DNA from: Turritopsis dohrnii
Lineage: Eukaryota; Cnidaria; Hydrozoa; Anthoathecata; Oceaniidae
Length of the DNA: 64,000 nucleotides
Direction: 5' to 3'
Assembly (NCBI GenBank): GCA_027922465.2
Contig: BQMF02000008.1
Span: forward strand, 806,001 to 870,000
Positions 13,101 to 36,507 of the stretch are shown here, one piece after another; the first letter of the stretch is position 1, and the number at the start of each line of letters is the position of its first letter. The translations under genes and the position numbers were made by a program. Below the pieces are notes generated by a model that saw nothing but the letters and a program-made list of their open reading frames with translations, did not search any database and had not been told where the DNA came from.

Positions 13101-16100
13101 AACATTGAAACAACATAGTTTGCAGTTATGGAAATATTCTGCATAAAACTTAATTTTAGCACCCTGCATATACAACTCAAATTTTAAAAATATAAACCAG
13201 ACCAGATTTAATGTTTTATAAAATCTTCCAAGTTACTGTAATTATAAAGAACCAGTTTTTAGCAAAAAGAACAAACATTGCCACTACCTCGGAAACTAGA
13301 CATGTTAAAATCTTTGCATTAAAATGACTTGTCAAGATGTTTGATTTCTGAATAATTATAACATAATGGAGGCCAAGATAGTTTTAATACCAATAAAATT
13401 ATCCTCTTTTTGAAACTTTCTTCAACCTCTTTTTTCAGTATCATTTGAGAAGCCATCTTTTAATTTATCACAAAATGGTACCACAATCAAGGTAGAAATA
13501 ATTGACATTGGAAATATAGAACAAGAGAGATATCATCACGGATTTGCTGTTCGATTAAGTGAGATACATGCTATCTCTGGCGAAATAAATGAAAATTTTC
13601 ATTACTTCTATACTGGAGAGAACCTGTATATGGAGAGTACTGCAGTAAACCAATTCATTAATGTAACACTTTGGCCAATAACACACGGGGGTTTCAGTTC
13701 ATCTTCAACAATGACGATCAAAACACCACCATCTAGTAATGACTTTTTAAACTTTTACTTTTGAAATCTGTGCTTTAAGTTTCTATTTTTGTGGCATAAA
13801 AATGGCTAGTTTTTGTGTTAAAACTTGTTTTATTCATACAAAAGTTTGTCAATTTATATGATTTGTTTATATTTTTTTAAGAGAATCTGTATTTTTTTTG
13901 TTTATAGTGAATACTGCTCCTGTCACTGTCATCTCTGCTCATGGTACCACTCCTCACTCCATTAATATCTCTTTGGAAAACTATCCATTGAGTGAGTGGA
14001 AGAGTGATTTTATGACATTTCGAATATTTTGGAGGAAAGTTGACGATATGACCAGTTTTGATTTGTCTGCTTACAACTATACTGATACTGACGATCATTT
14101 GGTACACTACTCAAATTTTGTTACAGCTCCAGTTTTGAATTTTTCAATAATGTCCCTGCAGCCATTTACCAATTACTCAATATTTGTTGGAACCATGAAT
14201 GATATTGGTCTTAATGTTTCGAGTCTAACTCACTTATATAGCAGATCAGGAGAGTGGGGTCAGTAGTTGTAAAAACTTTTTTTCAACAATTTCTTTTAAT
14301 GTATTTTCAAGGGAATTAGAAATTGTTAGATTGTAGATATATGTTTAAATTTTCAATGAATGATTATCCTGATTTAGCAGGATTTTGAATTCATCCTGTT
14401 CATTTGTAGTGCCCGAGATTTCTCCTGAACAGCTGGAGATCGAATTATCTGAACATGCAGTTGATGTGGCTATATTGAAATGGACACCACTGCGAAATGA
14501 TATTGAATTAATAAATGCATGGCAACTATCTGGTTACAATATAACTGTTCAGCCAATTTATCCTGAAATTGTTGGAAATTTTACCAATACTATTAATATA
14601 GTTGTTTCAAAAGATAATCACACAATTGTTCTCCCGCCAAGACACTATTTTTCCATTTATAAAGTCATTTTGTCTGGTTTCACCGAACATGGTAGTGGGG
14701 TTGTAAAAACATTGTGTTTTGCTTTAGGAGAGTCAGGTAAATTTTGTGTTTCTTAAAGAGCTCTTGGACGGTGTTAAGATATTGAAAATGTTATGATTTT
14801 GAAAAAAAAGTTGAAATGAGAATGTGGTTAGATATTTAATGTCAGTGAATTTTTCTTCAGATCCAAAAGCTGGTCCTCACTTTGTAAAAGAAATTGGTAA
14901 AGATCACAAATCCTTGAATCTATCTATAGGTGGTATGGATATTGAGAAAGAGAATGGAATTATACTTTACTATCAAATAAATTATACATCTTTGGACTGG
15001 AATGATACTGTACACGTTGTTCATACAGATGATATTCAACATCCCAGCAAGGATTGGGAATTTTGGAATAAAATGAAGAACAATTCTTTCAACTGTTCGG
15101 ATATTAAGGAGCCTCAACCTAATTCAGCTAAAACCATAAGTTACACATTAGACAGATTGATACCTTATACTTATTACAAGCTTTTAGTATCTGGATGTTA
15201 TGTGCATGGTTGCAGTCAGGTTTATACTAATGTTACTTACAGAACCACTGAAACAGCACCATCATGTGCCCCCAAGCTAAATATGTGGAATACAAGCTCA
15301 ACATCAATGATGGTATCATGGCAACATTTGGATCACTTTTGTTTGCATGGTGAATTTGTGATGTATTATGTTGCTTTACTGAATACGATAGACTACAAAG
15401 AATTGCTTGTAGAACCGTTATCATATGATCTCATTCCATCTACTCTAATAAGAACTGTTCTGTATGATACGTCAGTGCATTTTGACAATTTGAAGAAGTA
15501 TTCAAACTATACTGCTGTTATCTATGTGGAAAATAATGTAGGATTTGGTCCTATCTCAAACTTTACATCTGGTTTGACCGGAGAAGATAGTAAGGCACTA
15601 GTCCATTATTTTGTTTGTTCAAAACGTTTTTTGGACATTGAAAACCAAAAATGCTTTGGTATTATAAGTTATTTGTCAGAAAAGCAATATATGTTGGATA
15701 AATTTTATCTATTTTTATTTATTTTAATAATTTAGCAGTTTTTTGTTCAAATTAATGTTGATCTTTTTTCATCTATAGTACCTGATGGTCCTCCAACAAA
15801 AATAGTGCTGGTGCCATTAAATAGTACATCAATATTAATCAGTGTCAGCCCACCTGAAAAACATCTTGCAAATGGAATAATCATAGGTTATGAAGTAGAA
15901 TTTCTAAATAAGGAAGGAGAATCTGGCAAACAGGTGTGCAATACCACTGCAGACCTGCCTGCTAATCTTACTGTTGTTGGTTTACGCAAATTCATGGAGC
16001 ATGAATTTTGGATTGCAGCAATAACGAGCGTAGGAATTGGTGTCCAATCAGAAAAATTTGTTGAAAAAACCTCAGAAGATGGTAAGTTTTATATATTTTC

Positions 16101-19100
16101 GTTTGCATTTCAGCTATTTAAATGTCATTCTTGTATATACATATAATTTGAGCTATATGTTTGGAAATGAAGTAAAGATACTTTATTTTTTAGCACCTAG
16201 TGCTCCGCCTGAAAACAGCACAATCAATTCTGTTACAGAAACTGGAATAAGTGTTTCATGGAGAGATGTAGAAAGGCTTTCAAGAAATGGAATAATGAAA
16301 TATTTTCTTGTGTTTTGTAGTGGAGTTCTTGCCAATGGAACTCTCCATACAATTCTTCATAATGTATCTTACTCAGACCTTTTAGATGTATTTCCAGCAA
16401 CATTTGATCAATTATATCCTGCTACTAACTATACTTTATCTCTGAGTGGATGCACTGCGCTCGGTTGTGGTCCAAATGCCACCATAATTCAGGAAACCAA
16501 CGAAATGGGTAAGTTACTTCACCACTGTACTAGAAGAGTTTATGTCATATAAGTTATGATTTCCATTTCTTGTTGAAAAACAAAAAGCATTCGCGACAAG
16601 GTAACTGACCTCATTGATATACAGCACAACTCCAAAGACAACTGAATGATTGTAATAAGGTCAAAGCGTTATGCAAATTGAAGAACATGTGGTCAGAATT
16701 TTCTTTTCATTGTTGAAGTATTTACAAAAAATAGTGAATATTCTAAATTTGGTCCAAATTTGCCCTGCATTGACCGAGTTGAAGAAGAAAAAGGAAACCA
16801 ACATTAATTTGGCGATATCCATAACATTTCTTATTCATTTTATTTTATATAATCACATTTACTACAAGCTTTCGGAAGTGCTTCCTCCGTGATCACGTAT
16901 TAAAATTTTTTTTGTATTCAAAATAAATAAATTTGAATAAATTTGATAATTTTTTTTAGCTGTTCTTATTGTAATTATTTATTTTGACACCTTAGTTTAC
17001 GTCTCTTGACAATATTTTTGATCTATAAATTACACATTGTACAAAAAAAAATTTTAATACGTGATCATGGAGGAAGCACCTCCGAAAGCTTGTAGTAAAA
17101 TGTGATTATCTAAAATAAAATGAATATTACAGATCTGTGTATCAAGCTTCTTATGGATGAAAATTTCTTATTCTAGTACCCAGTGGTACAGTAAACAATA
17201 TTTCCCAATGGAATGACACAGCAAAGGAAAGTTTGCATTTCACATGGGAAGACATTTTACCCATGATGAAGCGTGGTCGCATCATCAAATACAATATTAC
17301 ATACAAAAAAATCGTTCATCCTTGGGAGAGCATTGCCAGTGCTAGTCAATGGACCGTATTCATACCTGGAAATCATTCAAGTATATCAATTCCAAATCTT
17401 GATAATTACACCTATTATCATGTTTACGTGGCGGCCTCGACATACATTGGATTTGGACCAGTTGCGAAATCCATTTTTAGAACTGCTGAAAACGGTATTA
17501 ACTTTGCAAATGAATGACACTTCTTTGAGATTTTCTCTTGTTTTCTTCACATCACTTGTTTTTAGCGCCATCTACAAAACCTACCAATGTGACTGGCTAC
17601 AACATCAGCAGTAGTGGTTTAGCGCTTAATTTCTTACCAATTGAAATGCAACATAGAGAAGGTGTGATTCTTGGTTATAAGGTTTTCTATCGTCAAGCTG
17701 ATTATCATGTAAAATGTTCTGCTGAAGACAGCTGTAGTGCTTTGAATATGTCAATCTGCTATGGTGAACACATTTCATCATGCAATGCTACCGGCCTTGG
17801 TTTGAATACCAACTATTCAGTGTGGTTGGCTGCATTTACAGTAGGAGGAACTGGTCCAAAAAGTGATATGATTTTTGTTGAGACAGATACATACGGTAAT
17901 GTTTGAGCTCGGTTTTTTTCTGTGATCATCAAGGCATTTCTTATGGTGACTGTTCGGAAGTATTACATTTGAATCTACTGTTTAATTTTTCAGTTGATGG
18001 CAATTGGACAAGCTGGACCGAATGGGGAAGTTGCGATAAAAGTTGTGCACATGGCACCTCACTAAGACTTCGCTGGTGTATCAACCCTGCACCACAAAAA
18101 GGTGGTAAGGATTGTGAAGGAGATAGCAATCAAACAAGAACGTGTAATGATTTCCCTTGTTCCAGTAAGTTCAAAATCATTTTACACTAACCATATTTAT
18201 TGGTTATATTTACAGACCTTTTAACCAAAATGTTTTGACGCTATTAAAGAATAATAAAGAAGCAAAATAATCGTTAATGATTGCAAACAGACTAACAGTC
18301 GTTCCGTGTGCGATAACATGTTCCCACACATTTTATAAAATTTCTATTTGTTTTATCTATCTTTAAAGCTTACTATCTTGCGGTGCCTGGTGCGGACTGT
18401 GATAGGACGTGTCCTTCCGTCGACCCAACCTTTCTCTGTTCACCTTACATAAAGACGAGAAATTCTATCAACGTTTTCGAAACAGCAATGGATGCAAGTG
18501 ATTATACGAAAACTGTGGACCTAATTTGTCAAATGAATGGTCAGAAAAAGTATTCGCAAAGCAATCACCCGTTCTATGAAATAGATTCGCATAATTGTAT
18601 TGGCTTCAAAGACATCCCTGTCAGCATTAATTGTACATCGAAAGAACCTCTTAGCAATAATCAAAGAAGGCTTTGTTACTGCGTCGACAAAGGTATAATT
18701 ACAATTACAAGATAATTATTATTTGATGGAGTTATCATAATTTTAAAAATTATAAAAACCCTTAAAATCAAATCAATCGTTTATTGTCAATATCCTTTGG
18801 CATCTTTTATATTTATTTTGTAGAAACAATGATGTATATGGATTGGGCACCATGGAGCGAATGTTCTGTTACATGTGCAGGGGGACGAAAAAGGCGTTTT
18901 CGAACATGTCTCTTCGATGAAAAATACTGTGATAAAGTAATGGATGAACAAGATTGCAATATGTTCCTTTGTCCAAGTACGAAAGCTATTCTGACACTTG
19001 TTTTTAAAAAGGGTTTCAGGAACCTTTTGTTCATTTATAGCCCTTCAAAAATATTTACTTTATCTGACTGTTCCTTTCACTAGTTGACGGTGGTTGGGGA

Positions 19101-22100
19101 GAGTGGGGTGGTTATAGCGCATGTAGTCGTAGCTGTGGTTTTGGTAAACAAAGAAGGAAACGATTGTGTGTCAACCCTGAACCAAGATTTGGTGGAAAAG
19201 AATGTGAAGGCTTCGATGTGGATAATATAGAAGGATGTAATCCGCAGCCATGTCCAGGTACGATATAATACCCCTAAAGAGAATGATGTACACCTCCTAA
19301 CATTTCAATTCGATTTCTAAGGTCCTTTATGACGTCATTACTTTGATATAAACCTTGCTTCAATAAATTTTGTATTGGTTTAATCTTAATGACGCACTAA
19401 TTGTAAAAAAAATCAAAGAAAGTGGAAGAAAGTCTCCACGGCAAGTGTTCATTTCACATAGATCTGTAAGTGGGCCTGGAACGAACCCTCCTTCCCCCAT
19501 ATTCCATCTAACCCTGGCTCCGTTTCGTCACTTTATTTTTGTAGTCCATGGTGGATGGAGCGAATGGGTTTGGGAACCAATGTGCACTCAACCTTGTGGT
19601 ATTGGGGGCGTTAAAATAGCACATCGTTCTTGTACTAACCCTACACCAAAGAACAACGGAAAGGAATGTGTGGGTGAGGATACGAAACGAGTGAAATGCA
19701 ATGAGCATATCACTTGCCGCGGTAGGTAGCGATTGCTTTGTGAAAAAAACTTATCTTTCATATACAATTCATTCTGTTTATCTCTTTTTTAGAGGTTACT
19801 ATTAACTACAAAATTAAGTTGCCAACAGCAACATGGCACTACACTATGGTGTATGACAGCACTGATAGTTTTGCTAATGTTTCTACTTTACTGTTTCACA
19901 AGGTAAGTATGTGTTGTATGGTATCAAAACTCATTCGTGTTCTTGTAAAATATTGTGTTCTTGTTGATTAGCTCAACAATTCCCTGGAAAACTATCCTGT
20001 CGCATTGAGTAGGACAAAGAAATTCGAAGCAGTTCAAATGGAGTGAGTTTATTCTTGACTCTCATTTCTACACAAAGCTGTCCACGATTGAAATTTTTTT
20101 ACATACAATCTTTCGCGATTTATGATTGGTATCCATTTCTAATATTTGATGTATGTGTTTCCAGGAAAGGAAGCGTCATTGTTAACTTCACAATCACCTA
20201 CGATGCTGCGCCGTTTATAGAAGTCCTGCTTGTTCAAGATCTAATTGATCGACGCAACGTTTTTGATGATCTACCCGTGCAACCAGTGGCCATTGACACA
20301 GTTGATGGTAAAAAATAATGAAATAGAGAACAGAACGAGAAATAAGAACAATTTTCTTTCATGTATTGATTCTGTTTCTTTAGTTCCTGAAGTTTCACCT
20401 GAATTCTTCATTGATTCCTTCACATCGTTCACGATAACCGTGAAATGGGATCCACTGGATACAACCGACGGCAGCACTATCCACGGCGACTTTTATGTCT
20501 ATTATGTGTTCTATCGTCGGATGGATGACGATGTTCTGCCACAATGGAATTGTGTTGGCACAAAAAATACGACTTTAGTTTTGTCCCATTTGGCTGCAGG
20601 AAGGATGTATGGTATTCGAATGCTGGTGTCTTCCACACATGGTAACGGCATCGCCTCCAAAGAATTGATTGGACAGACTCTTGAAGGGCGTAAGATATTT
20701 CATTATTTTAACTACACACTACCCTTGTAAAGACACTAGTGGTAAGGCTTGAGAAAATATTCGCATGGGATCTGTAAACAATTGTTTTTGCTTCGGCCAT
20801 ATACAAAAACTCCTCCACCGTTACCTTACAACATCATTAGATTCATTCTTCAAGATTCATTCTTTAACGCGTATTTATCGCCAGAATTTTTTAGTTTTCG
20901 TTTTAATTGCTGATTTCGAGGAAAACTCACATCTGCAAAAGCAGAATTCAAATTTGTAAATATTTCACTTTCCAATAATAGCTCCATCTGAGCGTCCTTC
21001 TAACTTCGCCTGTCAAGACATCAACGGAAACACGCTTTATCTAAGCTGGAATGCCATTCCAACTGATAAAATCCCTGGCAAACTGCTCGGTTATGAAATC
21101 ACATGCCAGAAGCGTAATACAGACGAAACTTCCGTTTTGTACGCCACACCTGTAATGTTGCAACGAACACTAACGCAACTCAAACCCTTCACCTGGTATC
21201 ATCTATCTGTGACAGGATATACTTCAGCTGGGCGTGGACCATCATCAGTTCTTTTATGCCAAACACCTCCCGGACGTATGATCTTTGTATATTTTTTTCA
21301 ATAAGAGCTCGAGAAACATCTGCAGAAATATGAAATTTGTATTTTGTTCTTCTTAAAGCACCTGATGTTCCTCCGCCAAATGTCATTTACACCGACAAAG
21401 AAAGTTTTGATTCAATCATTATAAGTTGGGATCAGATACCAGACAATGAAAAGCATGGCGATCTTGGAGGATATAAGATCCGATATCAACTTTCCAAGGA
21501 AGGTTTCAGTGACATTCTCTATTCTCCTGTTGAAACGATCGAATTAGACAAGTATACCCTCACATATCATGTAAAAGGTTTACTGCCATATTCGGAGTAT
21601 AAATTCAATATCTACGGTTTTTCAAAAGAGGGAGACGGACCCACGTATGATTTCACAGCAAGTAAGAAGTAGATTCCATATCAAAATATTTTTCAGTATT
21701 TGCTTCAATACTTTTATGTATTTTTTTGTTTTTTGGCAGGAACATGCAAATGCCCACCGAAGATATACACTAACTTTTATCAGGTCCAACCATATGCAAA
21801 TGTTGATCCACATAATGAAAGTATTGCTACCGGATTATTTCCGACTCTTATCAAAAACATGATCGATGAAATCTGCTCAGATTGTATGTCGTACAAGCAA
21901 CCCGATATATATTTCGATCGTACCCGCAATGGTCATCCATCCGAAAAGTTAAACGAGATTGTCGTTCGTCAATCGATCGGTAACTCGAGTCAATTAAACT
22001 TTCCTGTATATGGAAAGAGTAAAGTGGACACGTTCAGTGGGATGTATCCGTTTATCGTGGTTGCTGAGAGTAAGGGCATTGCAATGATCGTTTGGAATCA

Positions 22101-25100
22101 GAAAATTAAAACAGTTGGATTTTATCCAATACTTTTGGCGATTGCCTCGTCATGGCCACTTGTAATAGTATTATGTTTAATGGCCGTTATTGTTGGCTGG
22201 TTACTCTGGTTCGGAGTGAGTTATTTATTTTTATTTGTTTTGGTTGTTTACATGAAGTATGAGTAAGTAAATAATGTGTCAATGACTTTTGTTTAGGAAC
22301 AAACTTCATCTAACAGTGACATGGCAATAAACAAAAGCCTTGTCGGAGCATTGCACGGCATTTGGACTGCCGTTGTCACCATGACAACTGTAGGGTTAGT
22401 AATTCTGGGTTTTTAGGTCTATTATTAGTAAGTAAGTAGCGGGAGTTTGCATTTATACTAACTTGCATTTGAACGAACTTGCATTTAAACGAACTTGCAT
22501 TTAAACGAACTTGCATTTAAACGAACTTGCATTTAAACGAACGAATCCCAGTTTCGAAACGATCTGTAAGTTCATAGTAACAATACATTTCTTCTTTAAA
22601 ATGTTGGGACATAACAGGAGTAACTTTTAATTCTGATTTTTTTTTATAGTTATGGTGACTTCACCCCATCCACTGTCCTGTCAAAAATCGTTATGATTGT
22701 ATGGGTTTTGGTTAGTTTGGTTGGTGTCAGCATTTTTATGGGAACCATTTCTACCGGATTGACCACGGCTAATTCCGATCGAGAACCAATCTTATATGGT
22801 ACCAAGGTAGATATCATTCATCATTTCCTGTTTACAGGAAAATTAACATCAAAAAGCAATTTAATCTAAAACCAAACTTTTTTTTTTACAAATAAAATGG
22901 CTTTATCGAAATTCGACAAATATTTCTGTTTCGCTTTAAAAAGGATTTTACGTTATGCTCCACAACTAACCGTTATTAGAGTCACGTGTGTACATCTCTT
23001 TCAAAGTGCATATGGACGAAGACAGCGTTCTTCGGCATTCTTATTATTTTGTCAACTTAAGGTTACTGTAAAGGAAAAAATTGGTAAAAATCACATTTTC
23101 TGATTTTTAGATATTATTATAGAGCGGAGCTTAATTTTCCATATGCAATAAATCTTTTTTGTCAAAAGTGTTTTTATTTCCCAAAATACGAGGAAAAACC
23201 GTTTTTGAGAGAAAATTCTGCAGGAGGGTTTTAAATAAAACATGTAAACATTGATCCTCACCTTCAGTGTTTTTTCTTTTCCATTGAGTTAATCTAATTA
23301 GTCATTGCCATTAGATTGTTGAGAAAGAAAATTTATAACAATAGAGCACCATTCCGCATGTTTGTTTATCATGCTGAAAGTTTCCAGCTGAGTAATTTTT
23401 TAAAACCGCGTTTTCTCAAAATTAAATTTATGTAAAAATTCTACCAATAAGGAGTTCCTGTGACACGAATATTTATCGAATTGCTAAAATAATTATACCC
23501 ACGTGATCACAACAGACTGTAGAACAAAACCGTGTCACAGTTTTTGAAATAATTATGCCAATCAAAAATAAATCGTTGCTTTAGCTTTGGAGTTAGCATA
23601 ATTATGTTACTTAAAACTTCTTTCATCATAACTTTTGAAAGACTTAATTATTTAAAAAACGCTGACACGGTTTTTGAGTTCGATCTTTTGGGAACATGAT
23701 GCAATAATCTTTAGAAAGAAATTTCAAAAATCTGTGTCACAGGAACTTGTCAAACACAACTACAAACTTTTTTGTTTTCAGCTCAAATTTCCAAAAAATG
23801 ATTAATTTACCTTTTTGCAAATTAGACCATCTTTTAGAGGAAAAACAGAGCTTTTCAGAAATATATACTTTTATATAATAATTGTTTAAAACTTGGGAGT
23901 TATTGTGTAAAAACCAAAGGTGTGCATTTTTCCTTTACAGTAACCTTAAAGTTTATAGATTTAAAAATATGAAACAAAAAAAAATACAAATAAAAAAATG
24001 GAAATATATAAAAAAATATATACACAGCATTTCTAAACGCACTCCCCTATGAGGTTGAAGCATCAGCGAGTCGTTTTAGAAAACACATACCTTATCGGTA
24101 AAAACTTTGTCGGCCGAAAACGACGAGTTTTTGGCGAGGTGACGAAACATTTCGACCATTTCAAAAATTTTCTGTTCTATATCTCTTTAACCTATTGACG
24201 TAAAATCAGATACCAACTGCCGTAAAAACAGTTGAGGCTTTTTTATCCAGCCTCCCCTCTTCTTCTTGTTGAATTTTAACCGCTACTTGGAAACATCTTT
24301 GACTATGTTTACACTCACTGGTTCTATTACGTCCGAAATAAGCGCCCTACAGACTTACACTCGAAGCACTTTCCCATTTACCTTGTTTATCATGAAATCG
24401 AGTAAATAAACAAAAACAAGCAATAACGAATTTTCGAAAAATGTCGAAACTTTTCGTCGGACTAAATTATTCGTTGGACGAAAATGACGAAAAGTTGTAA
24501 CGGCAAAGTTTTCACCGATAAGGTAGTTTCATTTGTACTTAGCCAAAGATTTATTCTTCCCTGCATAATACAACAACATTTGACAAATGGCTAACATGTT
24601 TCTTTTACGTTTAAAAATACAATCAAAACTGGTTGATCATTATAACCTTGTACATACGTGACGCCATAGTTTCAAAAATATGACGAAACGTGATGCTATG
24701 GAGCTGAAATTTGGAACACGAGTTCCGCTTTGACAATACTACCGAACTATCGAAACTAAACAACACGTTAATTTTGACGTTTAGCCATTTGTTAAAAAGT
24801 GTGACATTTGAGGTTAGCAAACATTCAAAAATAAGTTTCGAAATCTAACCTACTTTTCTGATTTATTAAATCTCTAGGTTCTTTATTACATGAAATTGAT
24901 GCTTGGTAGTACGAGATTTTTAGATTTTCATATGCCTTTCAAAAACTCTCCAAATCAGCAGTTGTAACTTACAAGTTTACAATTCCGGTTTTTTGATGTT
25001 CTGCTTGAGAAAGAGAACACAGATGATATTAATAATATATTATATTAATAATATAATATCTAATTACTAACACTCTACTTACCAATTCTACTTTGCTAGA

Positions 25101-28100
25101 TAATTAATAAGTACCAATTCTAGAACATCACAATCTCTTCTCTAGCACAAGCCATACCACTACGTCAGTAAGCAATATTTTTTTCAATGTTTTTTAGTTT
25201 CATTAAAAATTTTAAACCAAATATGTTACTTGAAATTTCTATTATATAGTATATGTTCATAGGCACTGGTACAGACCCCTGCGTACTCGCATTTAGTATC
25301 TATCCTCATAATGCCTATTGCAGTTGTTCGTTTACCTATCCATATAGTCTCAATTTAGTTCAATTAGTATTTCCAATTCCTATCTCCCATTCACAGGGTT
25401 GCCACGTCTGGAAAAATGTCTGGAAATTGGCTTGTGTCTGGAAAAGTCTGGAAATTCTGGAAATTGTCTGGAATTTTGAGTATTTGTCTGGAAATGTCTG
25501 GAAATTTTATTTGACTAGTGTTGAAAAAAATTAAGCATACTTTGTGTATTTTCTTGTAAAATTTTAATAATTTTAATTAGCTCAAATGAACTTCTGAACA
25601 CTTGTTTACTGTCACTTTTTGCAATTGTTTAAAATGATGCTGGTGTCTTTTCTACAATTGCTTGCTTTTCTTTCAGCGACAATAAGATGTGTTGCATGAA
25701 AAGTACAACAGTGTAGGCCTTGTACAGCTGACCTTTACATCATCACTTACATTTTTCCTGATATTTTTTATTGAAATGTTACAAGTTTTCTTACTTTTTG
25801 CCTTGAAGTGAGTTAGAAAGTAGGTGAGATGTGTCATCTATAATTTTGAACATCTCAGTTAAACTTATGCTCCCAATAAGCAAAGTAGTTAATGCTACAT
25901 TTTGGTTAATATGTAACAGACACAGATCCCAAATTACCATTAGTTCAAATGAGAACAGTTCTGCTCACTTAAGAAACTTCTCCATTGCAGTATTTTCTAA
26001 AATTTATATAGCCACTGTGTCAATTTGATATTAAAACTCTGTTAAATGCACTTGCTCACCTTTCAGGTAGTTGCATTTTCATATAGATTTGTTATTTTGT
26101 TACTTTTGTTTTTGAGCAGTAGTAAGTGAAATTGACTTTTGTTAATTTATTCAACTTATTCACAACTCACATATTGAGAAGTTTTAGAGCCTGCTAATTT
26201 ACAAGGAAAAAGTAGTCGAATTTGATGTATATGAACTGATCCCTATGATATCTGATGCCCTTTACTTCTAGAAAAATGAAGTAACAGACTGTGACAGATT
26301 CTTAGTTGTTTGCTTAACAGAACATGATTTGTTTCTTTCTTTGTTTATTATATTGTTGATGATAACGTATAAAGCAAATATTCTTTTCCCTGTGACCTGA
26401 TGTTTGAAGCCATGGCAAACTCAAGAAAAGTCCTCATTTTGTCAAATTTGCTGAAGTTTGGTTATTCTAGATTCTAGAATCAGCATAATGCCTTGAAAAA
26501 CCCAAGAAATTAACTTGTCTGATTTTGGCTGCAAACCACCTGTTGATAATTTCCTTGAATTCTGTTTCGCCTCCGTATCTGTGAAATTAGCCAATAGACT
26601 TAAGTAAGTAGTGTTTTCTGAGTGTCTGGAAAAATAGTGCCTTTTTTAAGTTTTGTCTGGAAAAAATATATCATTTTTAAACTAAGATTCTGGAAAAAAA
26701 GTATCAATTGTATGGTTGTGTCTGGAAATTTTGTTGCCAAAGGTCTGTGGCAACCCTGCATTCAATTTTGTCCAATCCAACCTAGTTCATATCTCGTCAT
26801 CTATTCCATTGGTGGTCTACCAGTATCATGTTATTTTTTTTTTTAAAGTCAAGTTAATTATTTATTTTATTTTCACCTTAAAATATTGAAAATGGCAAAC
26901 AGGCCTTGCATAACCGGTTTATCTTCGTATGGCATAGGTTTTTTTTTTTTTTGTTTTTTTTGTTTGTTTTTTTATCACTTCTAGTCGCAGGGACTAGTTA
27001 TTGTCCCAATTCTGAGTCAATCTTCTAGATATCTAATTACTAACACTCTACTTACCAATTCTACTTTGCTAGCGTAGCCGGTCAGAGCATCTCACTAGTA
27101 TACATAATATTTTTATAAATATAAATATTTTTCTAGACTTTGCACATATATACCGTATTTCCTCTATTAAGCGCCCGGGCGCTTATAAAATTTTTTCGAA
27201 AATTAGGAGGGCGCTTATTGGAGGGGGGCGCTTAAAAGAGGGGGGCGCTTATAAAATTATTTCAAAAAACCCCTACAAAAAATTGTGAGAGGTGCACTGA
27301 CAGTTTTAAAAGTGTCAAATGACACCTTAAAAGGAGTCATTCTACGGTGCCTAAAACGACACCTTTAAAGGAGTCATTATTACTCCTAAAAGGGAGTCAT
27401 TCAAGAGAGTCAAGTGACACTTTCAAGGGAGTCATGATTTAATGACTCCTTTAAGAGAGTCAAAATATGACTCCCTTCGGTGCCTAAATTGACACCTTTA
27501 AGGGAGTCATAGTATAATGACTCCTTTAAAGGTGTCGTTTTAGGCACCGAAGGGAGTCATCATACTTCGACTCTCTTAAAGGAGTCATCATACTTTGACT
27601 CTCTTAAAGGAGTCATCTAGAGAAATAGAGTACAGGAAAGCAGCAACAACATAAACATAATTATAGAAAAGTACATATTTTTTGAATTATAGTGAACTCA
27701 TAAATACATCGACGCCATAATATAGTATGTGGAACTTAAAAATTGTAAAATAAAACGCTTGGAGCAGATAAAGTCTCTTTCTCTCTCATGAGTCCTGATT
27801 ATCCAAAGATTAGATAAAAACTGGTAAATAATAGAGAGAATCTAAATTTAAAATGCTGACCTCAACTTCGCCATGATAAAAACTAAATCAGAAGTTAGAT
27901 TTGAAAGAAACTTGGAGGATTGAAAAGTTTGAAAGTTGAAGTTCATACTCGGAGGAAAACAGTTATAAACAGCAAAAAAAAAAACATTCAAAACATTAAA
28001 AATTCATATTTCTTTCGTGCTGATCGACGGAGGCTCCGTCGTTGGGAAGTTTTTGAACGCTGTTGCTCCAGAAAACGAGAAACTCCTTTCGTAACTTTCA

Positions 28101-30874
28101 AGTTTGTGGTACTCGTAGTGGTTTGCTTCAGTTTGTTGTTCAGTTTAGTGGTTTGCTTCAGTTTGTCTTGTTGTTTTCCATTACCTCAAAGTCCTTATGA
28201 AAGATCTCACAAGTTAATTTGTTCACCGATTTGAACACTTCCAAACACAGCCTCCTTTTCATTAGGCTTTCAATTCACTAACATCAACCATATTCTGTAA
28301 TGATTCAAACCAATTTCAAACACTTCTAAACTTTTTACTTTCTATTTTTCATACCTCTAAAGAAATCAATAAATTTTCTTTACTTTCCAGCTCAAACATA
28401 AACGTAAACATATATATACTTAATAAAAAATACTTTCTTCCTCTCTTCGTTTTCACTGAAATTTCGCTACCATTTCGCACTGAAAAACACAAAACCATGA
28501 TTTGCCATAACTGTTTGTTGAAGGTGATGTAAAACTTTCGCGAATAATAAGCCTTTTATATCAAATAATTCACCTTCGTATCACCAGTTCGTCGTGAATG
28601 AAAATGAAGAATTTCGAAAAGAACGCCGTTGTTGTAGTTTCTTCGATTTCGATTCGATTTCGAACACAAACACATACAATTTAAGGGTATCTATAATCCC
28701 TGCGAAAAGAGTGATCTTGAATACAGAACTCTAAAGCGCTCACAAAAGTAATGACTGAGGAAGTTAAATTTAAATGTCAGATAAAGAAATAATGAACAGT
28801 AGAATTTCACCCGAGTAAATGTCGCTCAAATGTTTACAAATATTAAAATTTATTTAAATCTATCACTCTCTAAATAAAAATGGAATGCAATGTTTATGCT
28901 TAAACAGATTTTTATACTCTAGCATTATTTGCTAAGTTTAATAATTGGAAATCATTCATAACAGATGGACCTGATATGAGCGACAGTAGTAGAGAAATGT
29001 ATAAATTTCAACAATCATTGAACGTCCACAACAATCATTGAACATCCACAACAATCATTGAACGTCCACAACAATCATTGAACGTCCACAATAATCATTG
29101 AACGCAAATGAAGGAGTCAAATGACTCCTTTTTGGTACTCATTTTAAATGACACCTTTTAGGGAGTCATTTTGACTCCTTTTAGGTACGCAAGGATTACA
29201 TGACTCCTCAAAGGAGTCAAAATGACTCCCACAAAAGGAGTCATTGCAAGATAATTTTAAATGATACCTTTTAAGGAGTCATTTTGACTTCTTAACGGAG
29301 TCATAAAGGAGTCTTTTCGCAAAGAGTATGTTTTAGGAGTCAATTGACTCCTTGAAATTTATCAGGTTAAAAATAAATACTTATTTCCACTTTTATTATT
29401 TTCTATAAAAACTATGTACAGAAAACAGAAGAAATATCAGGTATGGTTCATGTAATGTTTTCCAACTCTATATCTATGTCGCCATCTTCTTCTTAATCGG
29501 AGTCTATTAGAATGTTTGGATCATCTTCCATGTCTCGTTGAAAAGATCTACAAGCAGTTGGCTGACTGTTTTGGCTAGTTTCTAATAAGCGCCGGGGCGC
29601 TTATCTAGGATTTTGACTCTAACATTGTAACTCTAATAACTGCCCGGGCGCTTATTAGAGGGGGGCGCTTATAAAATTATTTTTGGATTAACAGGGGCGC
29701 TTATTAGAGGGGGGCGCTTAAAAGAGGGGGGCGCTAAAAAGAGGAAATACGGTACTATATAATATTTTCAGCTGAAGAGCTAAATGTAAATTTTGGAGAT
29801 TGAAATATACCATTATTATTGTTATTATTATTATTATCATTATTATTAACAATTAAACAGTAAAATAACACAATCACTTCAATAAAATCTGAAATGCTAA
29901 GTAATTTTTAAAAATAAGCAGGAAAAGGAAAACATAGCAACAACTTCCAACATGTTTAATTGACTTTCGGACACCCGTAAAGTATTTAAAATACTCGTAG
30001 TTTTTTCCTCCTCGTCCTAATGTACTACTCCAAGTTTATGAACGATTTCGTGTAACATTTACATGACATCGTTGCCGAATCACAATTTCGGCCAAATTTG
30101 GAATTTCAGTTGACCAATTTTCATAAAAATTTGCACAGGTTTGACTAAAATTTGGGTAATTTTATATAAGCCAAACACATTTGGAAGGTGCTGATTTTGA
30201 ATTTGGCAGTCATTTTGTCAAATTTGACTAAAATTGGGTAATTCAGAACGAAATTTCAAAAGCGACTTCTTGTTTATATTTACAACGCCTTGAACTAACT
30301 GAAACCATGCCAAATAGAAAAATGGTATGACACAGGTATTAATGATTTCTAAACCAAACGTAGAAACGTAACAAATATTTACGAAGAACTAAAGTAACTA
30401 GAAATCTTATATAAATCTTAATTATATAAATCTTAATTAACTTCAATCGCAGTCTTATGTAAATTTAATTTGCTATTCATCGACGATTTCTGTAGACTGG
30501 AGTGCTGTCAAACTCGCCTGAATATCATTTTGCAGTTCGTCGAAATGCTGATGTGAGGAAAGAATTCGTTTTTAATACAACCGAGGAACTTCTAGATGCC
30601 GTGGCGCGGAAAATAATTACCATAGGATTGTTGAATATCGCACTTGCCGCTGAATATGAAGATGAAATTGCTAGTCGGAACTTGAAAATTGGAAACGTCC
30701 TGAAATCAAGCGGTGATCTGGGGATAGTTTTAAGTGGTGGTATGGAGGCTATACAACAGGAAGTTCGCAGTTTTATGTTCAGCAGGAAAACCTACATTGA
30801 CCAATACATCGGGAACAACACTGCAGCTCTTCATGTGAGCTTCCCTTTTAAGGTCGTCGTCGTCGTCGTCGTCG

Positions 30875-30927
<53 letters not shown>

Positions 30928-31469
30928 ATTTAAAGATGTTTAAGTTGCACTGTTTATTTTTAGCCTTCGAAAACATCCACCGAAACGAAAATATTTTCTG
31001 AGGAGGAAGCGATCACTCTGATCTTGAAGTTTGTGATGGGCATGGGAGGTTTGATTACCTGCGGGATAATCAGTTGGCTCATCCGTAACTGCCGAAGACA
31101 CCACAAAGTTAATGTAATAGGTATGTGAGTCTTTAGTCCAAACTAATCTTGTCTCACGAATAATATTCAGATGCGAATAGATTGTGTTGAATTATTTTTT
31201 CCTTAGACCATCCACTCACATCCGAAGAATATTACTGCCAACTGAGCAAAGTGATTGACAGTTTTGTACATTCAATCAATACTCGTGCTATTGCATTAGA
31301 TAAAAAACACTTCGAAGATCTTGAGACGTTGGCGTATTTGAGGAAAAATTATAGACGCTTGCTTTTAAGAACTGGCTTCGAAAAAGATACCATCGAGAAA
31401 GGTTTTGAGAAGAACAGACTGAAGGCTGTGAAGAAAGTCATCCAGAAAAGTCAATTTGATGATTTGTGA
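985..31469 (+). CDS. giant adhesion-ectodomain receptor channel (5' partial)
   Basis: One gene, 5' incomplete. From 2203 to the stop at 31469 the joined exons stay open for about 4,213 codons, and every junction is phase-compatible. Exons: 985-1132, 1666-1802 (uncertain), 2203-2607, 3912-4319, 4837-5178, 5296-5730, 5766-5999, 6414-6635, 6797-7300, 7444-7791, 8926-9264, 9346-9867, 9995-10248, 10327-10453, 10553-10934, 11025-11151, 11242-11446, 11594-11701, 11773-12384, 12472-12626, 12740-12822, 12899-13041, 13439-13735, 13908-14258, 14410-14736, 14861-15589, 15779-16081, 16194-16508, 17177-17494, 17566-17895, 17994-18164, 18369-18692, 18824-18976, 19084-19257, 19545-19721, 19793-19902, 19972-20042, 20165-20307, 20384-20689, 20982-21275, 21359-21661, 21740-22215, 22297-22394, 22650-22806, 30496-30834, 30964-31120, 31207-31469. 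The ectodomain is a string of adhesion and carbohydrate-binding modules. The C-terminus has glutamate-receptor topology with a TVGYGD filter. I infer a surface channel opened by a ligand or by adhesion force; no named orthologue is recognised. A possible poly(A) signal ATTAAA lies near 31572. Confidence 0.85.
1666..1802 (+). CDS. Cys-rich exon, boundaries uncertain
   Basis: The open frame after the acceptor at 1665 reads VSCKSLYCAIRQNAEQYW and onward, resembling the start of a PAN/apple-type Cys-rich module. The frame meets a TAA at 1907. A donor at 1803 (gtacca) is the only one I found that leaves phase 1, as required by the exon at 2203. The upstream phase (2) does not match the exon ending at 1132. 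Treat this as a candidate exon. Confidence 0.35.
2203..2607 (+). CDS. ectodomain module of unknown family
   Basis: A phase 1-1 exon of 135 residues with good splice sites (tattatag, then gtgagt). It has two nearby cysteines in its middle and a C-terminal stretch rich in aromatic and beta-strand-like residues (DEIHVWFQDN). No family is recognised. Its symmetry and position indicate a self-contained extracellular module. The preceding intron (1803-2202, 400 bp) shows nothing notable. Confidence 0.7.
3007..3487. mobile_element. MITE with 26-bp terminal inverted repeats
   Basis: The ends 3007-3032 and 3462-3487 are inverted copies (25 of 26 bases), of the form ATACAC-A/G-ATTTTTTTTTATAAGCAAC. The interior repeats the word GTTGCTTAA several times in both halves. 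It has no coding capacity and lies in the intron 2608-3911 of the giant gene. The open stretch at 3583-3882 downstream of it is not supported as a gene. Confidence 0.75.
3912..4319 (+). CDS. Cys-rich ectodomain module, unrecognised
   Basis: A phase 1-1 exon of 136 residues (tttatag acceptor, gtaagt donor) with about seven cysteines, including DTGLCIKPDC and a following SPGC. It looks like a disulfide-bonded extracellular module but matches no family I can name. The phase-compatible next exon is the C-type lectin exon at 4837. Confidence 0.7.
4378..4640 (+). pseudogene. possible relic or alternative Cys-rich exon
   Basis: After the acceptor at 4377 a short reading continues in the frame of the previous exon for 22 codons, then reaches a stop or a gt donor at 4441. 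Beyond it a second frame reads DNCLKQLKTMNAEC, a stop, then GCVKEYYMDYCYYD. This looks like a Cys-rich module interrupted by stops. It does not fit the phase of the lectin exon at 4837, so I left it out of the main model. Confidence 0.3.
4837..5178 (+). CDS. C-type lectin-like domain exon
   Basis: One phase 1-1 exon encodes a complete C-type lectin-like fold: the first conserved Cys in ARNKCRQRGG, a FWLSLF strand, then HECVAAD, WFAIPC and FYICQC as the later cysteines. The calcium-site motifs are altered: NEPSDHE sits where EPN is usual, and WFAIPC replaces WND. Calcium-dependent sugar binding is therefore doubtful, and protein or other ligand binding is as likely. Confidence 0.85.
5296..5730 (+). 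CDS. LamG/pentraxin-like domain exon
   Basis: A phase 1-1 exon of 145 residues. Its core reads FYDIIMSWYKKEDLIKLYLN followed by GDLVAS, the typical strand pair of a concanavalin A-like (LamG) fold, with hydrophobic strands before it. This is the first of three such jelly-roll domains in the protein. Confidence 0.7.
5766..5999 (+). CDS. small Cys-rich exon after a 35-nt intron
   Basis: A phase 1-1 exon of 78 residues with four cysteines (FCIYDD, YSCLRY, NGCID, SLCQD). The family is not recognised. The only phase-correct acceptor I found leaves an intron of 35 nt (5731-5765), unusually short for an animal. Two later acceptors (5793, 5820) break the frame. The exon ends at a gtatta donor. Confidence 0.6.
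6414..6635 (+). CDS. PAN/WSC-like Cys-rich domain exon
   Basis: A phase 1-1 exon of 74 residues with five visible cysteines, among them VYCQTG, DCLISCY, KCFCEKE and HVCFIK. The Cys-x3-Cys pair followed by a CFC-type motif is typical of WSC and PAN-like carbohydrate or protein binding domains. The flanking introns (6000-6413, 6636-6796) show nothing notable. Confidence 0.65.
6797..7300 (+). CDS. beta-rich module, DNRLRE-like (tentative)
   Basis: A phase 1-1 exon of 168 residues. It reads RSCFFAFNSIAIPKITEV, then HAWLKFKVL, and later Q-V-DLVDDE, recalling DNRLRE-type jelly-roll modules, in which a strand-forming FDLSSIP-like segment precedes A-L-LYV. The match is weak and the call is a guess at fold level. 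The second propeller exon is followed by a related module at 9346. Confidence 0.4.
7444..9264 (+). CDS. two tectonin/tachylectin-like propeller exons
   Basis: Exons 7444-7791 and 8926-9264, both phase 1-1. Each has short repeats of the type 'strand, GKIYGL/LFAVMK, strand, W': for example VANGKIYGLRNYKIFECV and HIYNWDD in the first, and NQLFAVMKTKLYLLL with NIWECV in the second. This is the pattern of tectonin or tachylectin-2 type beta-propellers, which bind sugars. The 1.1-kb intron between them (7792-8925) holds no feature I can support. Confidence 0.5.
9346..9867 (+). CDS. second beta-rich ectodomain module
   Basis: A phase 1-1 exon of 174 residues resembling the exon at 6797 in length and strand pattern (HLFEFSLSVN, ASFYVKTATAF, WTPGDNVIFAIWND). 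The two probably descend from one module that now brackets the propeller pair. Family not established. Confidence 0.5.
9995..10453 (+). CDS. MAM domain (two exons)
   Basis: Exons 9995-10248 and 10327-10453, joined in phase 0. The first gives the SLQENVMFWLYIAGND and KLWLI strands. The second gives HYGLRCQAAIDDITVG, a clear MAM signature (YG--C--AIDDI). MAM domains mediate adhesion and receptor clustering. The pair starts and ends in phase 1. Confidence 0.8.
10553..11446 (+). CDS. LamG domain (three exons)
   Basis: Exons 10553-10934, 11025-11151 and 11242-11446, joined through phases 2 and 0. The fold reads FESEFTIMLHFKLD, RRIFSFGSND, then VVHQWHFLVLLYKDDKIKIM, and ends with FFYGELSCFQAYN: the W--L strand and the G-LS-FQ-YN ending of a LamG/concanavalin A-like domain. 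The donor at 11447 (gtttca) is weak, but the frame supports it. Confidence 0.75.
11594..11701 (+). CDS. short EGF-like exon
   Basis: A phase 1-1 exon of 36 residues with KCVNGG, RECLCE and DDC, an EGF-like spacing that keeps only four cysteines. It separates two LamG domains, the alternation seen in neurexin, agrin and other LamG proteins. Confidence 0.6.
11773..12384 (+). CDS. LamG-like domain exon
   Basis: A phase 1-1 exon of 204 residues with a concanavalin A-like pattern: SILYISFEDR, then CKDGFLIGFWMKL, KIFNFGYLDISI and IFYISLLVTPNG with INGND. This is the third LamG-type module. A phase-1 SEA-like domain follows. Confidence 0.65.
12472..13041 (+). CDS. SEA domain 1 (three exons)
   Basis: Exons 12472-12626, 12740-12822 and 12899-13041, joined through phase 0 then phase 2. 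The strand order (FIGSTNIRKKFTQLKFTL, a helix, VHDFLNSASNY, then DKFVFTVNVNFHYVS) fits a SEA domain. The GS autocleavage motif is absent at the turn (LDDKFVF), so this copy is probably uncleaved. Its internal intron phases match the second SEA domain. Confidence 0.6.
13439..15589 (+). CDS. fibronectin type III domains 1-5
   Basis: Exons 13439-13735, 13908-14258, 14410-14736 and 14861-15589, all phase 1-1. The last exon carries two domains. FN3 signatures include SIMSLQPFTNYSIFVGTMND, LDRLIPYTYYKLLVSG, MVSWQHLD and LKKYSNYTAVIYVENNVGFG. The first exon is the least typical. Many N-x-S/T sequons mark a glycosylated extracellular surface. Confidence 0.85.
15779..17895 (+). CDS. fibronectin type III domains 6-9
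   Basis: Exons 15779-16081, 16194-16508, 17177-17494 and 17566-17895, all phase 1-1, one FN3 each. Typical words are DGPPTKI near the start, ANGIIIGYEVEF, FDQLYPATNYTLSLSGCTA, TYYHVYVAASTYIGFGP and LNTNYSVWLAAFTVGGTGP. Each begins with the usual P-x-x-P entry and ends with the G-G-P loop. Confidence 0.9.
16833..17125. mobile_element. foldback MITE, 84-bp arms
   Basis: 16833-16916 and 17040-17125 are near-perfect inverted copies, differing at a handful of positions, around a loop of about 120 bp. The arms include CTACAAGCTTTCGGA and TGATCACGTATTAAAA. It lies in the intron 16509-17176 of the giant gene and has no coding capacity. The transcript could form a long hairpin. Confidence 0.85.
17994..18164 (+). 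CDS. TSP1 repeat 1
   Basis: A phase 1-1 exon encoding one thrombospondin type 1 repeat: the WTSWTEWGSCDKSC start, LRLRWC, GGKDCEG and TRTCNDFPC. All six cysteines and the tryptophan ladder are present, making tryptophan C-mannosylation possible. A non-TSP Cys-rich module separates it from the next three repeats. Confidence 0.93.
18369..18692 (+). CDS. Cys-rich module between TSP1 repeats
   Basis: A phase 1-1 exon of 108 residues with nine cysteines, beginning PGADCDRTCPS and ending RRLCYCVDKG. It is not a TSP1 repeat, and I cannot name the family. The RLCYC ending recalls Cys-rich modules that accompany TSP1 repeats in invertebrate proteins, but that is only an impression. Confidence 0.7.
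18824..19721 (+). CDS. TSP1 repeats 2-4
   Basis: Exons 18824-18976, 19084-19257 and 19545-19721, each phase 1-1 and each one TSP1 repeat: WAPWSECSVTCAGGRKRRF; WGEWGGYSACSRSCGFGKQ followed by GGKECEG; and WSEWVWEPMCTQPCGIGG followed by GKECVG. The middle repeat lacks an in-frame ATG and is easy to miss. TSP1 repeats bind glycosaminoglycans and matrix. Confidence 0.92.
19793..20307 (+). CDS. SEA domain 2 with GSVIV cleavage-type motif
   Basis: Exons 19793-19902, 19972-20042 and 20165-20307, joined through phase 0 then 2, as in SEA domain 1. The turn reads EKGSVIVNFTITYD, with the codons for Gly-Ser at 20169-20174. SEA domains that self-cleave (mucins, some adhesion receptors) do so between G and S of GSVVV-type motifs, leaving two non-covalently held chains. 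If active, the large adhesive part would be held to the channel by the SEA fold alone. Cleavage is inferred, not shown. Confidence 0.75.
20384..21661 (+). CDS. fibronectin type III domains 10-12
   Basis: Exons 20384-20689, 20982-21275 and 21359-21661, phase 1-1. FN3 words are ITVKWDPLD with LSHLAAGRMYGIRMLVSS, LYLSWNAIP with LKPFTWYHLSVTGYTSAG, and IIISWDQIP with LLPYSEYKFNIYGFSKEG. These domains form the membrane-proximal stalk between the cleavable SEA domain and the ligand-binding-like region. Confidence 0.92.
21740..22215 (+). CDS. S1-like ligand-binding half and TM1
   Basis: This 158-residue exon follows a Cys-rich start (TCKCPPKI). The segment YANVDPHNESIATGLFPTLI resembles the start of the glutamate-receptor S1 lobe, and VDTFSGMYPFIVVAESKGIA resembles its DFS-PF--G-- segment. 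The conserved agonist-binding arginine of S1 is not obvious, so glutamate may not be the ligand. The last 30 or so residues (AIASSWPLVIVLCLMAVIVG and onward) form TM1. The exon ends in phase 0. Confidence 0.65.
22297..22806 (+). CDS. potassium-type pore loop (TVGYGD) and TM2
   Basis: Exons 22297-22394 and 22650-22806. The first ends GIWTAVVTMTTVG and the second continues YGDFTP, rebuilding the K+ filter TVGYGD across a phase-2 intron that splits the first filter glycine codon. TM2 is MIVWVLVSLVGVSIFMGTIS. Pore helix, filter and TM2 spacing follow two-TM K+ channels and bacterial GluR0-type receptors; animal glutamate receptors have lost this filter. The 255-bp intron contains a 16-bp tandem repeat. 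Confidence 0.9.
22459..22542. repeat. 16-bp minisatellite in pore intron
   Basis: About five copies of a unit of the form GAACTTGCATTTAAAC, the first slightly divergent (GAAC for AAAC). It lies in the small intron that interrupts the filter codons. Confidence 0.95.
23057..23949. mobile_element. MITE-like element, 23-bp inverted ends
   Basis: TTAAGGTTACTGTAAAGGAA and its complement end the element at 23057-23079 and 23927-23949. The interior repeats the word CTGTGTCACAGG and relatives (near 23453, 23530, 23733). It has no coding capacity. TTAA at both edges could be part of the terminal repeat or a target site, as in piggyBac-type insertion. Confidence 0.75.
24088..24525. mobile_element. MITE, TACCTTATCGGT family, copy 1
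   Basis: Imperfect inverted ends TACCTTATCGGTAAAAACTTTG (24088-24109) and its complement (24504-24525). The inner sequence is rich in CGACGAAAA words on both strands. The same terminal sequence bounds the element at 40548, so this is a dispersed family. Confidence 0.8.
25056..25099. repeat. 44-bp direct repeat, left copy
   Basis: A 44-bp word starting ATATCTAATTACTAACACTC and ending TTTGCTAG recurs identically at 27029-27072. The two copies bracket the hAT-like element and lie just before the element at 27151. The origin is unclear. Confidence 0.9.
25394..26758. mobile_element. hAT-like non-autonomous element
   Basis: The ends are CAGGGTTGCCAC and its complement (12 bp), a terminus typical of hAT-like elements. 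CATTCA directly flanks both sides, which may be all or part of a target duplication (hAT normally makes 8 bp). GTCTGGAAA and close variants occur about seven times after the left end and four times before the right end, all in one orientation, probably as transposase-binding repeats. No transposase is encoded. Confidence 0.75.
27029..27072. repeat. 44-bp direct repeat, right copy
   Basis: Identical to 25056-25099. It lies between the hAT-like element and the element that starts at 27151. Confidence 0.9.
27151..29754. mobile_element. 2.6-kb element with GCGCTTA ends and GAGTCA arrays
   Basis: The terminal inverted repeats begin TACCGTATTTCCTC (27151) and end with its complement (29754). Each end carries several copies of a GGGGCGCTTA/TAAGCGCCC word. 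Inside, 27301-27620 and 29108-29350 are two arrays of GGAGTCA/TGACTCC words on both strands, often as palindromes such as GGAGTCAAATGACTCC. The core 27620-29000 shows no transposase. Neither array is explained by coding. This looks like a non-autonomous DNA transposon with subterminal protein-binding arrays. Confidence 0.75.
29010..29105. repeat. 20-bp minisatellite
   Basis: Nearly five head-to-tail copies of AACAATCATTGAACGTCCAC with one or two substitutions, just before the right GAGTCA array of the 27151 element. Confidence 0.95.
29956..30280 (+). repeat. dispersed repeat, copy 1
   Basis: Shares a long block with 33268-33700, including the words GGACACCCGT, GTATTTAAAATAC, a CTCC-rich run and TTTACATGACATCGTTGCCGA, ending near CTTCTTGTT. 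Both copies have the same orientation. This copy lies in the giant intron. No coding is seen. Confidence 0.75.
30496..30834 (+). CDS. S2-like ligand-binding half
   Basis: A phase 0-0 exon of 113 residues placed between TM2 and TM3, where glutamate receptors carry S2. It reads TTEELLDAVARKIITIGLLN, then ALAAEYEDEI, then LKIGNVLKSSGDLGIVLSGG and a helix with EVRSF, following the S2 order (helix, A-I-D, then VG-F-S-GYGIAL-KGS). The acceptor is at 30494-30495. Homology is inferred from order and position, and sequence identity is low. Confidence 0.65.
30855..30929. repeat. GTC/GTT triplet microsatellite
   Basis: Six or so GTC triplets followed by a long GTT run in the intron 30835-30963. It makes an artificial poly-valine reading and is not part of the protein. 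Confidence 0.97.
30964..31469 (+). CDS. TM3 and cytosolic tail, stop
   Basis: Exons 30964-31120 and 31207-31469. After a short linker, TM3 reads LILKFVMGMGGLITCGIISW and is followed by the basic stop-transfer RNCRRHHK. The cytosolic tail is about 95 residues, rich in lysine and charged helix, and ends at TGA 31469. No PDZ ligand or kinase domain is apparent. The three-TM pattern with a re-entrant loop gives an extracellular N-terminus and cytosolic C-terminus. Confidence 0.85.
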
Positions 31470-36103: not shown

Positions 36104-36507
36104 GCCCCCGCAGCGAGCGTAAGCGAGCGAGGAGGCATAGTAGTTTCACGAGATAGGCGAATGTCAGTTCCGATTTTGTTCATCATCATCTTCCAACTTT
36201 CGTGTTGACGTTACACGGTGGAATACAATTAATTAGCTGACTTTGCTTTTTTTCCCGTTTCAAAGCATGGCACTGTAAAGGCCCCATTACACACGAGATT
36301 TTTGAAAAGAATTCATGAAGAATTTCTAAACTCTTTTGTCATTCTTCCTTAATTCTTCAATGTTTTACACGCAAAGATTTTTAAAAGATTGATCTTTGTT
36401 AAAAGTAAAACCAATTCTTATGATGGAATTCTTTTATAAACTACAAGAGAGAATTTATCTTTCTTTTCTAGAAGCACAGGTTATAGAAAGGAGCTCTTAA
36501 AAACAAA

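Follow-up and report, generated by a model that had tools for sequence, protein, structure and literature searches.

Fast ionotropic inhibition is usually seen as chloride flux through pentameric receptors, and the ionotropic glutamate receptors (iGluRs) of animals as excitatory. In iGluRs and in GluR0, closure of the clamshell-shaped ligand-binding domain (LBD) opens the second transmembrane helix (TM2), and a TVGYGD pore loop passes K+. The closest described receptors with a potassium filter are the bacterial GluR0, which PMC11479355 describes as lacking both the M4 helix and the amino-terminal domain (ATD), and the receptor AvGluR1 from the rotifer Adineta vaga, which PMC11479355, PMC12332018 and PMC12226733 describe as an animal iGluR with a K+ filter. 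Here we describe a gene on the forward strand of a stretch of 64,000 nucleotides from the hydrozoan Turritopsis dohrnii (contig BQMF02000008.1, positions 806,001 to 870,000; the whole stretch is hereafter called the window), which joins this type of filter to a predicted split LBD, a further membrane helix and a large ectodomain. Judging from its sequence and from a modelled homologue, the product is probably a cnidarian member of the iGluR/GluR0 superfamily: an inhibitory, K+-selective receptor channel opened by a ligand, with an adhesion-type ectodomain, three membrane helices and a re-entrant pore loop. An earlier reading of this DNA (the original prediction) had named GluR0 as the only known receptor with such a combination, a claim that falls with the animal precedent AvGluR1.

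The receptor part comprises 496 residues encoded by six in-phase exons of the forward strand (Table 1). Spliced, they read S1, TM1, pore loop, TM2, S2, TM3 and cytoplasmic tail, and end at a TGA stop codon (31467-31469). This order had been proposed in the original prediction, as had the reading of TVGYGD across a splice junction; the former is borne out by the in-phase splice model and the homologue alignment, the latter by the codons on either side of the intron. The exon carrying the pore helix ends in ACTGTAGG/gttagt and the following exon starts with TTATGGTGAC after tttttatag, giving the junction codons ACT GTA GG/T TAT GGT GAC. The filter has the TxVGYG form of K+-selective receptors of the GluR0/AvGluR1 type, and Pfam placed Ion_trans_2 (E 1.9e-9) over receptor residues 175-227 and Ion_trans likewise over the pore. 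The exon model was obtained by splice-aware dynamic programming, all exons being open and in phase; six entries (two of zero length) that the program had put inside the 7.7 kb intron between TM2 and S2 were removed by hand because 22806 joins 30496 in phase.

The receptor part, used as a protein query, gave seven matches. Among them were P0001 from Clytia hemisphaerica (E 3.8e-78; 33% identical residues over 99% of the query), P0002 from Oculina and P0003 from Nematostella. With the longer gene model, a single blastp high-scoring segment pair (HSP) aligned model residues 2725-4183 with P0001 residues 2-1449 (34.6% identity over 1,477 columns), spanning two fn3 domains, the TSP1 block, three further fn3 domains and the entire receptor. 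Since P0001 aligns in one HSP across the 7.7 kb intron, homology supports the splice and the assignment of the S2 and TM3 exons to the same protein as the pore exons, and the original prediction that the exons from 30496 onward form one chain with the pore is upheld. When P0001 was compared with the window DNA by tblastn (E up to 1e-3), matches fell on the exons for FN3, TSP1, S1, pore and tail.

The receptor module recurs in other cnidarians. One protein search gave 31 proteins, 29 of them with at least part of the module (P0135 is without the pore and P0137 without most of S2) and two without it (P0156, P0157). The organisms named for the 29 are all cnidarian, namely stony corals, anemones, an octocoral, Clytia and the jellyfish Rhopilema; three proteins are nameless. 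A second search (lengths of about 273-868 residues; best 120 of 932) added short forms, including Paramuricea and Montipora proteins, and 108 GluR0-type proteins; each of these protein searches scored only the 7,990-7,997 candidates sharing most words. The same module is found in uncharacterised homologues from Clytia (P0001), Oculina (P0002), Nematostella (P0138, P0139, P0143), Rhopilema (P0148) and others, many of which have an ectodomain with fn3, TSP1, SEA or EGF domains, of varying make-up. Their source labels read 'uncharacterized' or 'hypothetical', and for some 'sidekick', 'PTPRQ' or 'potassium channel'. Residues were counted in an alignment of 37 proteins and the window sequence, from which the bacterial-type set, P0004-P0007, P0014-P0016, P0019, P0020, P0076, P0156 and P0157 were left out. 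The filter is exactly TVGYGD in 32 of these 38 rows, the others having SVGYGD (one), TLGYGD (two), THGYGD (two) or no pore (one), and the filter stretch MTTVGYGD is the longest invariant run among four homologues. The THGYGD variant is that of two Rhopilema homologues, P0148 and P0150. In phylogenetic trees the window protein groups with Clytia P0001, with bootstrap and SH-like approximate likelihood-ratio test (SH-aLRT) values of 100 and 98, and with an SH-aLRT of 97 in a second tree.

The T. dohrnii genome (436 Mb, 891 contigs, the window being C8:806001-870000) was then searched for paralogues. The DNA pattern for TVGYGD occurs 75 times, against 17 for a reversed control; when all 75 sites were read, 73 lay in frames of at least 25 residues and two (L004, L008) lay between stops and look like chance. 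The receptor profile scored 34 of the 73 frames above 100 bits and the other 39 at 65.9 bits at most, and on this separation an ordinary voltage-gated K+ channel was rejected as an identity for the gene. Profiles of S1 only and S2 only gave medians of 12.4 and 15.8 bits in the 34 frames, some being near zero, and maxima of 1.9 and 4.0 in the other 39; the best S1 match preceded the filter and the best S2 match followed it in 30 of the 34. Five near-identical pairs reduce the 34 to 29 distinct frames that, besides the window gene, resemble the family and keep TVGYGD intact. Among these, 26 are at least 400 residues long with the filter well inside, and thus hold S1, pore, S2 and tail in one frame, with a hydrophobic segment after S2 in 25 and at the N-terminus in 24. 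The relatives are often clustered, for example on C86 and C139, and a tree made by a quick method placed 26 of 27 own-genome rows in one group of 30 (SH-aLRT 97), together with the unnamed proteins P0014, P0015, P0020 and P0076. When the genome was queried with the window receptor, 86 of 170 candidates were scored and 92 matches obtained. Beyond the window's own exons these matches include at least 23 further matches to the S1 exon, running from query residue 2 to at least 157, of which 22 end at residues 157-161 like the window S1 exon and one at 179; some of the 23 may be allelic copies. Separate matches to the post-filter and S2 exons were also found. All four paralogues that were read share the intron within the filter: an exon starts with YGD after AG, and the preceding one ends in TVG (two) or TLG (two). 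As read from the DNA, the 29 distinct frames and the 23 S1-exon matches represent a large family expansion in this genome.

Structure prediction for the Clytia homologue yielded the bilobed domain around the pore that the original prediction implies and that marks the iGluR/GluR0 superfamily, about 305-330 residues of the model superposing on AMPA and NMDA receptor chains. Evidence free of the pore came from a profile of S2 only (16 segments, the window exon among them), which, compared with the whole PDB, ranked Nostoc and Synechocystis GluR0 first (whole-sequence E 1.2e-4, 7.8e-4 and 7.9e-4), followed by binding proteins at 0.017 and 0.028 and mixed matches from 0.14; there was no animal iGluR among its 21 PDB matches. 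An S2 profile of 12 short relatives reached only E values of 0.11 or more in the PDB, mostly for binding proteins, with GluR0 at 1.3. Among the 108 GluR0-type proteins, which had been picked by a family profile that includes the pore and whose bacterial label comes from the SBP_bac_3 domain and a few names, the family S2 profile matched 12 at E<0.01 and 54 at E<1, compared with 0 of 1,080 shuffled or reversed controls. A profile-profile alignment of the whole module with the GluR0-type proteins extended over 293 columns, pore included, with a probability of 100. Pfam SBP_bac_3 and Lig_chan-Glu_bd match five of 32 members scanned; by their listed Pfam domains these five should be bacterial-type rows, hence no cnidarian row. 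These data support, at the level of sequence profiles and a homologue's predicted fold, a split bilobed S1+S2 domain of the iGluR/GluR0 type around a K+-filter pore, plus a third membrane helix.

On this anatomy, the subunits would be expected to form tetramers, in which the extracellular S1-S2 clamshell would bind a small ligand, probably not glutamate in its canonical pose. Closure of the clamshell would pull on TM2 and open a K+-selective pore. From what is established about such filters, selectivity for K+ is to be expected, and with it hyperpolarisation wherever the K+ gradient of the cell is normal. The fn3/TSP1 ectodomain, perhaps with a lectin domain, occupies the place of the iGluR ATD and may tether the receptor to the matrix or to adjacent cells, or modulate it.

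Several results weigh against a ligand-gated receptor of this kind. The evidence for the whole-module and S2 folds is that of the Clytia model and not of the window protein's own fold. A plain Foldseek comparison brings up iGluRs, yet at query-based TM-scores of 0.32-0.45 and a root-mean-square deviation above 10; a different orientation of lobes and pore, or an inaccurate monomer model, would lead one to expect such values. The best single stretches behind the GluR0 matches in the PDB are weaker than the whole-sequence values (E 0.045 and 0.0017 for the two printed). A profile of S1 only found none of the 108 GluR0-type proteins at E<1, so that the identity of S1 rests on fold and place. Of the two families against which profile searches had originally been envisaged, the K+ channel family is matched through Ion_trans_2, and for the iGluR family Pfam Lig_chan scores 25.4 bits with the window protein, under its cut-off of 30.8. 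An S1 arginine that holds the ligand's alpha-carboxylate and an S2 acid that holds its amino group are the standard iGluR contacts for amino acids, the arginine being defining. Apart from one column within the first cysteine pair, arginine occurs in at most 9 of 36 rows of any S1 column; the segment aligned to the bacterial TxxREK stretch is variable, and there is thus no conserved S1 arginine. At the S2 acid position the 38 family rows have Asp (32), Glu (4), Asn (the window protein) or a gap (1), so the window protein carries Asn where its cnidarian homologues keep the acid; in the 29 same-genome relatives the counts are Asn 15, Asp 10, Ala 1 and gap 3. Because of the missing conserved arginine and the Asn, canonical amino-acid binding is doubtful, and the label of a 'glutamate' receptor given originally is weakened.

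These losses are also what would be seen in a K+ channel with a vestigial clamshell, either gated by its adhesive ectodomain through matrix contact or tension, or constitutively leaky, and the large fn3/TSP1 ectodomain adjoining S1 would suit such a channel. We regard this as the strongest competitor, yet an unlikely one: an acid in 36 of the 37 rows with a residue at the S2 position, together with a strongly conserved N-S/T-x-E start of S2 in the aligned family, suggests a working cleft, and the 26 single-frame relatives of the same genome are short and leave no room for such an ectodomain. From the sequence, the ligand pocket of the proposed receptor is probably in use, though not for an amino acid bound in the canonical pose.

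A somewhat less likely alternative concerns origin, namely that a K+ filter arose anew in an ordinary animal iGluR and that the gene does not represent a lineage kept or acquired from GluR0-type receptors. The argument for it is the third membrane helix, as in eukaryotic iGluRs: the chain does not end after S2 as in the bacterial form, the TM3 exon and a tail being present. The GluR0-like topology originally claimed thus stands for the K+ filter and the split bilobed domain and fails for the bacterial arrangement, in which there is no M4. The available descriptions of GluR0 (Synechocystis Slr1257) and other bacterial GluR0-type receptors give them no M4, ATD or mosaic ectodomain, unlike the window protein. 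AvGluR1 is amino-acid activated, and a mosaic ectodomain of the present kind is not mentioned in the available text on it; its binding-core structure was compared, as a match, and it is otherwise set beside the window protein by description. The amino-acid contacts of GluR0 are not conserved in the window protein. Canonical animal iGluRs (AMPA, kainate, NMDA, epsilon), which generally carry an ATD and the S1 arginine, share the order LBD-pore-LBD-M4 with the window protein, but differ in having no K+ filter, in keeping the arginine and in an ATD instead of fn3/TSP1 domains. In the window protein three fn3 domains end directly at S1, with the TSP1 block upstream, and no ATD family was called by Pfam in five pieces covering 2,842 of the 3,688 model residues before S1. 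Against a regained filter, the S2 profile points to GluR0 and bacterial binding proteins and to no animal iGluR, and both pore (e.g. MFQRDMGG) and S1 (PLTIFEKRTQVVDF) are quite different in the canonical iGluR frames of this genome. Five such long frames were read (L064-L069, none that long in L067); they have no K+ filter, with pores such as LLQQGPDYTP or MFQRDMGGENP, and all five have the S1 arginine (TAEREEYVDF, EKRTQVVDF, TPVREEHVDF and alike). An ordinary animal iGluR was rejected on the absence of the K+ filter from these five frames. Frames L065, L066, L068 (on contig C159) and L069 span 314-335 residues and end shortly past the post-pore helix, probably at an exon end; several lie on C159.

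That the protein is a non-conducting or modulatory subunit, mainly an adhesion receptor with a relic pore, is improbable: the giant ectodomain and the THGYGD filters of the two Rhopilema proteins speak for it, and the invariance of MTTVGYGD and a T[VL]GYGD kept in all four paralogues read speak against it. An artefact of the gene model, in which a K+ channel fragment was joined to unrelated downstream exons, has already been largely refuted and is very improbable, for although 7.7 kb separate TM2 from S2 and the tblastn search with P0001 (E up to 1e-3) returned no piece of its own for 30496-30834 or 30964-31120, the blastp HSP, on which a chance join was rejected, spans the intron, S1, pore, S2 and TM3 stand in one chain in P0001 and other cnidarian proteins, and 26 same-genome relatives carry the receptor in one open frame.

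K+-filter ionotropic receptors are already known; new are their wide distribution in cnidarians, their multiplication and the fusion of some to adhesion-type ectodomains. A term search of the main text of a 2018 metazoan iGluR survey (PMC6307864) found no potassium, fibronectin, thrombospondin or GluR0, the AvGluR1 paper being in its reference list, and a term search of a survey of cnidarian voltage-gated K+ channels (PMC9989356) found no glutamate receptor, GluR, two transmembrane, selectivity filter or ligand-gated. In the titles and abstracts of the open-licence literature we found no description of a cnidarian K+-filter receptor family; subscription journals or other wording could hold one. 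Tentatively, and with more doubt than attaches to the channel itself, the present gene may be one of several tens of loci in this genome that belong to a large overlooked cnidarian family of ligand-gated K+ channels, a fast inhibitory or chemosensory repertoire parallel to canonical iGluRs; through its mosaic members, contact with cells or matrix would be linked to a K+ conductance that hyperpolarises. If so, cnidarians would have, in a GluR0-like family with a K+ filter, receptors that inhibit directly through a ligand-gated K+ conductance, and the K+-selective form of iGluRs that is presumed ancestral, known from one rotifer receptor, would have been kept and expanded in an animal phylum.

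Table 1 Features of the receptor gene in the T. dohrnii window, from the upstream end to the stop codon.
Position	Strand	Feature	Evidence
2203-13735	+	Possible further N-terminal ectodomain, including a C-type lectin exon (4837-5178); gene membership presumed	Pfam Lectin_C E 1.3e-11; open exons, most of phase 1
13908-16508	+	Further fn3 exons, probably same gene	Pfam fn3 E 7.6e-49, 5 stretches (piece 13908-17895); phase-1 exons; outside main P0001 HSP
17177-17895	+	Two fn3 exons; upstream limit of homologue confirmation	Pfam; P0001 HSP
17994-19721	+	Four TSP1 exons (17994-18164, 18824-18976, 19084-19257, 19545-19721) and Cys-rich exon (18369-18692)	Pfam TSP_1, 4 stretches, E 2.7e-26; collinear with P0001
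19793-20307	+	Three small exons between TSP1 block and fn3 exons	Splice model; last exon matches P0001 611-658
20384-21661	+	Three fn3 exons (20384-20689, 20982-21275, 21359-21661) directly before S1, at the place of the iGluR ATD	Pfam fn3 E 1.4e-29, 3 stretches; collinear with P0001
21740-22215	+	Exon: S1 (lobe 1, Cys pattern CxC...CxxC) and TM1 (about 22123-22212)	
22297-22394	+	Exon: pore helix and first filter half, end ACT GTA GG	Pfam Ion_trans_2
22395-22649	+	Phase-2 intron splitting the filter, TVG/YGD	Same position in 4/4 paralogues read
22650-22806	+	Exon: second filter half (YGD) and TM2	Splice model; homologue alignment
22807-30495	+	7.7 kb repeat-rich intron, TM2 to S2	Clytia P0001 continuous across (blastp HSP)
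30496-30834	+	Exon: S2 (lobe 2); Asn at usual Asp/Glu ligand position (LLNIAL)	Homologue alignment
30964-31120	+	Exon: TM3 (M4-like), about 31009-31083	Splice model; helix 366-398 of Clytia model
31207-31469	+	Exon: cytoplasmic helical tail and stop TGA	Splice model; helix 407-496 of Clytia model; tblastn piece 31242-31460

Upstream of about 17177 the gene model is based on open frames, phase-1 exons and Pfam matches only, and neither gene start nor start codon was found. The SEA domain present in some homologues was not called by Pfam in the three small exons before the last fn3 block. Repeats are found in three of the receptor introns: a 16-base tandem repeat within the filter-splitting intron (22447-22542), tandem arrays of GAGTCA/GACTCC-rich units and of GGGGCGCTTA units in the intron between TM2 and S2, and (GTT)18 at 30874-30927 in the intron after the S2 exon.

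Elsewhere in the window, the reverse strand encodes a PDZ domain and part of a C2 domain (57658-59373 and on to about 63900), a combination that, in our view, recalls PDZD8; the other frames scanned up to 63.7 kb gave no Pfam match. A reverse transcriptase fragment (RVT_1) lies at 39842-40360 of the reverse strand, and a frame at 35542-36210 of the same strand, which gave no Pfam match, resembles a retroelement 3' part. An open frame of 146 residues on the forward strand (52807-53247) has a signal-like start and no Pfam match up to E 0.01. Two copies of nearly one stretch, at 42994-43380 and 43600-43959, carry near-identical open frames on both strands.
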